A model generated the notes under the pieces. The model ran no database searches, had not been told where the DNA came from, and was given only the letters and a program-made list of their open reading frames with translations. A stretch of DNA of 64,000 bases, from NCBI GenBank assembly GCA_002840155.1, contig PGZH01000014.1:1-64000 (forward strand), in the 5' to 3' direction. Source of the DNA: Gammaproteobacteria bacterium HGW-Gammaproteobacteria-13. GTDB lineage: Bacteria > Pseudomonadota > Gammaproteobacteria > Pseudomonadales > Pseudomonadaceae. The translations under genes and the position numbers were made by a program. Below are positions 35,604 through 42,388 of this stretch, piece after piece. The number at the start of each line of letters is the position of its first letter. Position 1 is the first letter of the stretch.

Positions 35604-36503
35604 CTAGATCGCGGGGATCGGCAGCACCGTCACCTGCACCTCGGGGTCATGGCTGCCACCGCCGAGAATCACCCCGCGCAGCGGCGAGACATCGGCAAAA
35701 TCGCGGCCCCAGGCCAGGGTGATATGTTCCAGCGCCGGGCGGATATTGTTGGTCGGGTCAAAATCCACCCAGCCCTGCTGCGGGCAGAACACCGAGACCC
35801 AGGCGTGCGAGGCATCGGCGCCGATCAGCCGGGGTTGGCCGGGCGGCGGCTGGGTCAGCAGATAACCACTGACATAGCGCGCCGAAAGGCCCATGGAGCG
35901 CAGACAGGCAAGCATCAGGTGGGCGAAGTCCTGACACACGCCGCGGCGCTCCTCCAGCACCTGCAACAGCGGTGTCGCCACCTGGGTGGCGGCGGCATCG
36001 AAGCTGAATTCACTGAAAATCTTCTGCATCAGCCCATCCACCGCCGCCAGCAACGGCCGGCCGGGGCTAAAGCAATCCGCCGCGTAGGCGGCGAACACCT
36101 GCTTGAGGTGCACATAGGGCGATTCGAAGCGAAAGCGCGTGGCCTCCAGCACCCCAGGCAACAGCGCCTGACCGCTGTAACGCAGGGCCGTGCAGGCCTC
36201 TTCCCAAGGCGGCGACGCCTGCAGATCCAACGTTGGCCGCGCCAGCACTTCGACCTGCAGCCGCGCACTGACTTTGAGCTCATCATGCGGGCGCTCGAAT
36301 ACCAGGCGGGTCAGCGGGTTGCCGAACACATCCAGGGCGTCCTGGCGCTGGCACGGCTGCGGGCTGACCTGCAACTGCTGGTTGTGATTGCACTGCCAGG
36401 GGCAGGCGCGCGGCCACAGATGCGCCAGCTGCTGGGCCAGCGACACCGGACTGGCGTAGCGGTAATGGGTGTCGTGAAGAATCTGATAGAAGGCGCTGCT
36501 CAT
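35604..36503 (-). CDS. Transglutaminase-like protein of the ATP-grasp/alpha-E cluster
   Basis: 299 residues. An N-terminal bacterial transglutaminase beta domain begins FYQILHDTHYRYASPVSLAQQ. The papain-like core follows, with Cys190 in RRGVCQDFAHLMLACLRSMGL, His233 in DASHAWVSVF and Asp249 in WVDFDPTNN, so the triad is complete. It could hydrolyse or transfer amide/isopeptide bonds. Its start overlaps the upstream ATP-grasp gene by four bases, so they are co-translated. Confidence 0.9.
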   Translation of the reverse strand: MSSAFYQILHDTHYRYASPVSLAQQLAHLWPRACPWQCNHNQQLQVSPQPCQRQDALDVFGNPLTRLVFERPHDELKVSARLQVEVLARPTLDLQASPPWEEACTALRYSGQALLPGVLEATRFRFESPYVHLKQVFAAYAADCFSPGRPLLAAVDGLMQKIFSEFSFDAAATQVATPLLQVLEERRGVCQDFAHLMLACLRSMGLSARYVSGYLLTQPPPGQPRLIGADASHAWVSVFCPQQGWVDFDPTNNIRPALEHITLAWGRDFADVSPLRGVILGGGSHDPEVQVTVLPIPAI

Positions 36504-42000: not shown

Positions 42001-42388
42001 ACTTGGCAAATAGCTTGTCGGCCGGCAGCTTGACCAGATAGGGCGCCAGCTCCAGCTGCTCGCCTTCGGTGTAAGCAAAGGGGATTTTCTCGGCGTAGGG
42101 TTCGAGGAAGAAATCGAAGGGGTTGAACACCGCCATTTCGGCGACCAGATCGACCTCAATCTTTAGCTCACGGGTCTTTTCCGGAAACACCAGGCGCGCC
42201 AGGTAATTGCCCTGGGGGTCCTGCTGCCAGTTGATAAAGTGCTCGCCTGGCTCGACCTTCAACGCGTAGGACAGAACCCGGGTACGGCTGTGCGGTGCAG
42301 GGCGCAGGCGCACGACCTGCGGGCCAAGGTTGACGGCGCGGTCGTAGCGATAGTGGCTGACATGGTGCAAGGCGATATGAATCGACAC
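39098..42388 (-). CDS. Transglutaminase / DUF2126 putative amidoligase fusion
   Basis: 1096 residues from GTG 42388, which has AGGAGG seven bases upstream; the frame itself opens at 42430. Residues 1 to about 280 are a transglutaminase-like unit with Cys180 ([10 protein letters not shown]), His229 ([10 protein letters not shown]) and Asp245 (WIGLDPTSG). The rest is DUF2126, classed as a putative amidoligase, with segments such as [42 protein letters not shown] and [19 protein letters not shown]. It is the first gene of the cluster. Confidence 0.9.
   Translation of the reverse strand: [1096 protein letters not shown]

Follow-up and report, generated by a model that had tools for sequence, protein, structure and literature searches.

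Organization of the locus

Within the window, the 64,000-nucleotide stretch of DNA that was analysed, three genes lie in one direction at positions 35604 to 42388 (Table 1), an arrangement proposed earlier from the letters alone and confirmed here by the open reading frames and by Pfam domains whose scores far exceed the cut-off in all three genes. Gene 1 combines Bact_transglu_N and Transglut_core with DUF2126 (1352 bits); gene 2 is indeed a fusion, with matches to CP_ATPgrasp_2 (525 bits) and Alpha-E (222 bits) in one protein; gene 3 again contains Bact_transglu_N and Transglut_core. Gene 1 starts with a GTG shortly downstream of an AGGAGG, the mechanically called reading frame beginning at a TTG at position 42430, and genes 2 and 3 overlap by 4 bp.

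REP-like palindromes of the TAGGAGCCAGCTTGCTGGCGA type and of the GTGGGAGG...CCTCCCAC type occur at 39022-39087 and at about 42577-42629, 5' of the promoter. A mechanosensitive-channel gene follows about 56 bp after gene 3, with a small inverted repeat (CCAGTGA/TCACTGG) in between (35548-35603), and the pair of genes upstream (42663-45058), which overlap by 4 bp, encodes an SO2930-family diheme cytochrome (TIGR03806) and a beta-helix protein (TIGR03805).

Table 1. Coordinates of genes, domains and candidate regulatory elements in the window
Feature	Position	Strand	Basis
Gene 1, transglutaminase-DUF2126 protein, 1096 aa	39098..42388	-	ORF list, Pfam, alignment
Transglutaminase (papain-like) domain of gene 1, ~residues 1-270, triad C180/H229/D245	41579..42388	-	
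Glutamine-synthetase-fold part of DUF2126, ~residues 293-938	39575..41512	-	fold comparison
Gene 2, probable pseudo-ATP-grasp with fused alpha-E, 837 aa	36500..39013	-	ORF list, Pfam, alignment, structure model
Circularly permuted ATP-grasp domain of gene 2, ~residues 20-490	37544..38956	-	
Codons A174-D175-R176 replacing E-D-N metal motif	38486..38494	-	alignment
Alpha-E helical domain of gene 2, ~residues 515-830	36524..37471	-	Pfam; helical in model
Gene 3, stand-alone transglutaminase-like protein, 299 aa, triad C190/H233/D249	35604..36503	-	ORF list, Pfam
REP-like inverted repeat, gap between genes 1 and 2	39022..39087	.	direct reading
Sigma54-type -24/-12 promoter TGGCATAAGTCTTGCG, 53 nt 5' of GTG	42426..42441	-	conserved in same-genus loci
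NtrC-like site GCCCTGTTGTGGTGC, 7/8 of GCAC-N7-GTGC	42494..42508	-	consensus match only

Both transglutaminase triads had been described as complete, and they are maintained throughout their families: C180, H229 and D245 of gene 1 are invariant in 42/42 aligned sequences, as are C190 and H233 of gene 3 in 37/37, and D249 is found in at least 90% of the alignment. The nearest fold match of the thiol domain is annotated as a putative cysteine protease. Structure comparison assigns residues 293-938 of the gene 1 protein, within DUF2126, to the glutamine synthetase fold. At the level of single residues, E332, E666 and H713 align with glutamine synthetase residues that we take to be E129, E220 and H269 (E values 0.01-0.03, low probability); in the same weak alignment T334 occupies the E131 position and a third segment is unaligned. 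The profile alignment of the whole domain with glutamine synthetase is weak as well (E 0.024, probability 2%), and the presence of glutamine synthetase active-site residues in DUF2126 is thus only weakly supported.

The fused ATP-grasp has lost key residues

Gene 2 has the fold of an ATP-grasp ligase of the type of glutathionylspermidine synthetase/amidase (GspS). For a comparison of its residues we used positions conserved in 23 or all of 24 stand-alone ATP-grasps, scored them in 37 sequences of the fused family and numbered them after the stand-alone paralogue encoded on contig C21 of the same genome. That paralogue has D145, E158, N160, K316 and K363, each present in 24/24 stand-alone copies; D, E and N are presumably metal ligands and the lysines presumably bind ATP. 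In the fused family E158 and N160 are kept in 0/37 copies (A174 and R176 in the window), K316 in 1/37 (P334) and K363 in 14/37 (R381), and the glycines G369, G370 and G372 of the glycine-rich loop remain in 2, 6 and 4 of 37 copies, the altered loop having acquired no new conserved pattern. The third aligned metal ligand is retained in the window as D161. In a wider set the E..N motif was present in 42/42 stand-alone copies; among 113 fused copies it could not be located in two, and the other 111 have the E in none and the N in two. A loop pattern tried as a criterion for intact ATP-grasps was discarded as too strict, as it matched 2/42 intact copies. Alignment with E. coli GspS places D318, E330 and N332 on D145, E158 and N160 of the C21 copy, and K498 and K533 on P334 and R381 of the window protein (weak matches, E 0.12 and 0.26, in agreement with MAFFT).

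Despite these losses the ATP-grasp part of gene 2 is under purifying selection, with dN of 0.055-0.166 versus dS of 0.64-1.06 in nine comparisons. We infer that gene 2 probably encodes an ATP-grasp without ligase activity, and go no further than that because ATP-grasps using other ligands are conceivable. The count of two ligases in the window, given in the earlier note, can therefore hardly stand: as far as the alignment shows, the fused ATP-grasp has lost ATP-binding residues, namely two of the three metal ligands as well as the two lysines proposed to bind ATP. Since gene 2 lacks key ATP-handling residues and has yet been kept in evolution, it is probably a partner of an intact copy encoded elsewhere. 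The ATP-grasp of the Anbu operon of Yersinia bercovieri, presumably of the intact type, frees phosphate from ATP, according to passages of PMC6376114.

Conservation and co-occurrence

DUF2126 was detected in 129/397 genomes of a phylum sample and in 88/119 genomes of the genus. Beyond a first same-genus set, 120 loci were collected, 40 of them chosen from the 129 positive genomes of the phylum sample and 80 being the best of 593 in named genomes. Sequence reaches 6 kb or more beyond the 3' end of DUF2126 at 110 of these loci; on the same strand and no more than 12 kb away, the fused ATP-grasp-alpha-E gene lies downstream in 101 of them and a transglutaminase gene in 100, so that the gene set is a widely conserved unit rather than a chance arrangement. 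All 129 DUF2126-positive genomes have a match to the circularly permuted ATP-grasp, as opposed to 103/268 DUF2126-negative genomes (raw counts that ignore kinship; three further negative genomes have sub-threshold matches only). Two or more such matches are present in 123/129 positive genomes, again as raw counts irrespective of kinship. Six DUF2126 genomes have a single match, and in all three that could be resolved (L087/G477, L224/G154 and L227/G333) it is of the intact stand-alone type; in G333 DUF2126 itself is fragmented. A ComEC-like protein is encoded beside the cluster in 13 loci, which probably reflects shared gene order.

A gene for a substrate peptide had not been seen near the cluster, and comparison of 1337 small open reading frames (25-110 aa) from the 120 loci and the window likewise revealed no conserved one. 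The largest group covers four loci, and no group spanning several loci includes an open reading frame of the window. On these comparisons the idea of a substrate peptide gene near the clusters was rejected.

A second operon and the relationship to Anbu

The second circularly permuted ATP-grasp of the genome is located on contig C21 (G000:C21), with tens of kilobases between it and either end of the contig. At this locus (L042) the genes run in one direction and encode the stand-alone ATP-grasp (469 aa), alpha-E and a transglutaminase; it is an Anbu operon without Anbu. The combination of circularly permuted ATP-grasp, alpha-E and transglutaminase is found in the window unit and in the C21 operon alike. 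On the opposite strand 3' of the C21 operon, L042:7831-8616 shows weak matches to CBASS Cap12-type NAD hydrolases.

Anbu had been reported as absent from the window. It was found neither beside the window operon or the C21 operon nor in the rest of the genome, which is 99.95% complete and whose sole PF00227 match is HslV. Where 6 kb could be read to either side of the DUF2126 cluster (100 loci), a stand-alone ATP-grasp is encoded in its flanks 42 times and Anbu four times. At L228 the genes for DUF2126, Anbu, a transglutaminase, a stand-alone ATP-grasp, alpha-E and another transglutaminase form one same-strand run, and the fused ATP-grasp-alpha-E gene was absent from the 18 kb fetched. In L228, L222 and L229 Anbu directly adjoins DUF2126, tying both predicted systems together. 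The C21 operon and the stand-alone ATP-grasps near DUF2126 clusters therefore suggest that the window holds half of a larger set. The survey of co-occurrence with Anbu that had been recommended gave 80/129 DUF2126-positive versus 80/268 other genomes in the phylum sample, so that we rejected the idea of DUF2126 as an Anbu-free system; within the genus the figures are 5/88 versus 9/31.

Another peptidase, Peptidase_Mx, consists of a zinc ribbon and a putative zinc metallopeptidase (PF10005/PF15887; an HExxH-type motif was recognized by eye) and was encoded within the fetched flanks of 11 loci. It looks linked to the DUF2126 cluster: counting fragments, it occurs in 64/129 DUF2126-positive versus 18/268 other genomes of the phylum sample and, within the genus, in 73/88 versus 4/31. 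In the genome of the window it was not found, and 11 of the 88 DUF2126 genomes of the genus, this one included, have neither Anbu nor Peptidase_Mx. The two peptidases are nearly exclusive in the genus (Peptidase_Mx in 1/14 Anbu-positive genomes); as a general rule, mutual exclusion was rejected on the phylum counts (55/157 versus 24/75 ATP-grasp genomes). In genome G087 DUF2126 and Peptidase_Mx are both fragmented though located on separate contigs, and this joint fragmentation hints at a functional link.

Promoter elements and probable nitrogen control

The promoter of the window unit was compared with the 30 best-scoring other loci of the 88 positive genomes of the genus. The element TGGCATAAGTCTTGCG is present in 31/31 of these loci, 30 times exactly and once with a single base change, and its surroundings are variable. 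When 300 nt upstream were scanned for a -24/-12 element (GG and GC fixed, threshold 9/11), the threshold was reached at 55/99 loci with DUF2126 leading, at 0/20 with another gene of the system ahead of DUF2126, and at 28/40 starts of stand-alone ATP-grasp genes; the controls gave 42/830 for non-overlapping open reading frames of at least 200 aa and, with the same outcome, 81/1441 with overlapping frames included. By group, 34/59 leading loci that belong neither to the Pseudomonas type nor to other classes score positive. Leading loci that come from different classes of the phylum (L089-L109) do so in 1/20 cases, no more often than the controls, so that the sigma54-type element typifies only part of the range. 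In the C21 operon TGGCGCGGGCCTTGCA is located 52 nt 5' of the start, and nine of 12 operons related to it score 10/11; L110, L115 and L118 do not. For Peptidase_Mx, 19 of 20 same-genus loci were readable, and four of them have a match of 9/11 within 420 nt before the zinc-ribbon motif; as the distances are scattered and the matches partly REP-like, Peptidase_Mx has no consistent sigma54-type element at these 19 loci. A scan of the whole window for sigma54 elements with three mismatches found no excess (354 versus 392 expected); our assignment rests on position and conservation.

Sites resembling GCAC-N7-GTGC, which we take to be the NtrC pattern, occur 75-260 nt upstream with at least 7/8 matches in 30/31 same-genus loci, 27/79 leading loci not of the Pseudomonas type and 110/830 controls; full matches number 0/31, 8/79 and 6/830, respectively. 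In its promoter elements the window unit thus appears to fit a sigma54/NtrC regulon at the level of the consensus.

In Burkholderia cenocepacia I35_5080-83 are listed as NtrC and sigma54 targets, with log2 changes of -9.4 for I35_5082 and -6.0 for I35_5083 (passages of PMC5491218). Nitrogen limitation raises PP_2686-2688 of Pseudomonas putida 11- to 15-fold, and these genes have been assigned to NtrB/NtrC (PMC7801951, in part). According to the same source they are still 14- to 20-fold up in an rpoN mutant, and the Anbu gene PP_2685 barely responds in the wild type (value 1.1), both of which argue against strict sigma54 control in that organism; the urt genes, too, still go up in the mutant. 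A passage of another study (PMC3325844) gives 11.1 for PP_2685. In marine metagenomes the co-abundance of such genes correlates with urea domains, as stated in part of PMC3597751.

Proposed function and alternative explanations

The three genes might represent one half of a bipartite amide ligase/amidase system made under nitrogen limitation, a reading to which we assign a probability of about 0.5. It starts from observed features, namely the folds, the triads, the lost residues, the selection, the linkage and the promoter elements. NtrC would turn on both operons when nitrogen is scarce. A carboxylate would be converted to an acyl phosphate by the intact ATP-grasp and by DUF2126 and then joined to an amine, and the best guess for the product, after GspS and YgiC/YjfC, is a peptide-amine or glutamyl-amine conjugate; the former is preferred because GspS combines ligase and amidase and YgiC/YjfC are annotated as peptide-spermidine ligases. 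The papain-fold transglutaminase domains may cut or transfer that amide via a thioester, and the ATP-grasp-alpha-E protein would act as a non-catalytic partner that holds the substrate or regulates the active ligase. The purpose could be feeding on an unusual nitrogen source or on the cell's own peptides. A bolder version, a widespread nitrogen-starvation machine in which the dead ATP-grasp-alpha-E is an obligate subunit and works with the intact ATP-grasp and the glutamine synthetase-fold/thiol fusion to make and cleave such a conjugate, is possible but doubtful. Contacts among Anbu-operon proteins were not found in Y. bercovieri (passages of PMC6376114), which we count against the proposal.

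The interpretation given in the earlier note, which stands as to a conserved unit of the amidoligase/transglutaminase kind and is not supported as to two ligases in the window, had overlooked the promoter and the second operon. In its terms two active ligases, the ATP-grasp and DUF2126, would build a short peptide tag that the two transglutaminases attach to proteins. Gene families and order, the ligase-type fold of DUF2126 and the closeness to the published prediction described in parts of PMC5666114 and PMC6376114 agree with this; we nevertheless regard it as unlikely given the missing metal ligands and candidate ATP lysines of the fused ATP-grasp, the failure to find a conserved small open reading frame near the 120 loci and the window, and the failure to find Anbu in the genome. 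It is similarly improbable that the fused ATP-grasp is active and holds metal and nucleotide by other residues. Candidates for such a role exist (R in place of N in 34/37 copies, E in place of P402 in 25/37), D145, D273, R270 and R271 are mostly retained, part of the replacements show conservation of their own, and purifying selection acts on the domain; yet the glycine-rich loop has changed along with two of the three aligned metal ligands, and no new conserved pattern has arisen in the loop.

Little weight is also given to the explanation that proteolysis or amide hydrolysis is the main activity of the transglutaminase-like proteins, which would degrade peptides or amides for nitrogen, with the ligase folds serving as substrate activators or sensors. 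The nitrogen-type promoters, the links to Peptidase_Mx (64/129 versus 18/268) and Anbu (80/129 versus 80/268), the correlation with urea domains (PMC3597751, in part) and the cysteine protease annotation of the nearest fold all speak for it, whereas keeping two folds that use ATP, one of them with every candidate residue, would be costly for pure degradation, and at the 19 same-genus loci no sigma54-type element stands at a consistent place before Peptidase_Mx. If the two-part amide ligase/amidase reading is adopted, the ATP-grasp worth assaying is the C21 copy and gene 2 of the window should be treated as its partner, the condition pointed to is nitrogen limitation, and the two separate operons should be considered together. 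The old question of the substrates of Anbu-type operons thereby becomes directly testable in common laboratory strains of Pseudomonas.

Comparison with known systems

A prediction of such systems dates from 2009 (Iyer et al., as described in passages of PMC5666114, PMC6376114 and PMC3597751), and passages of the literature on Anbu-type ligase operons do not name the substrate. In a short literature search that covered few subscription papers, no paper was found on an inactive ATP-grasp fused to alpha-E, on the division into two operons or on the Peptidase_Mx link; the 2009 paper may already describe some of these ATP-grasps as inactive.

The Anbu operon (Anbu, transglutaminase, alpha-E and circularly permuted ATP-grasp; probably PP_2685-2688 in P. 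putida) shares its domain families with the window unit. Nitrogen control has been reported for it, and the C21 operon matches it minus Anbu, whereas the window unit adds DUF2126 and the fused degenerate ATP-grasp-alpha-E, and Anbu was not found in the genome. The strongly NtrC/sigma54-dependent genes I35_5080-83 of B. cenocepacia H111 include a transglutaminase-like protein and a "large protein containing transglutaminase-like domain", a likeness by description drawn from transcriptome data only (passages of PMC5491218). The Rlo operon of P. aeruginosa (RloABC) likewise unites an ATP-grasp, a transglutaminase-fold protein and a peptidase and also has an inactive member; it differs in its RimK-like ATP-grasp, membrane protein RloB and aspartic protease (PMC12239564, in part). 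In contrast to GspS and the E. coli peptide-spermidine ligases YgiC/YjfC, the window copy of the ATP-grasp lacks the residues aligned with E330/N332 and K498/K533. The glutamine synthetase superfamily, which includes gamma-glutamylmethylamide and 1-naphthylamine synthetases, shares its fold with DUF2126 residues 293-938; DUF2126 differs from these enzymes in its fusion to a thiol domain and in an identity of 6-14% in the aligned parts, and amide synthesis is putative here.
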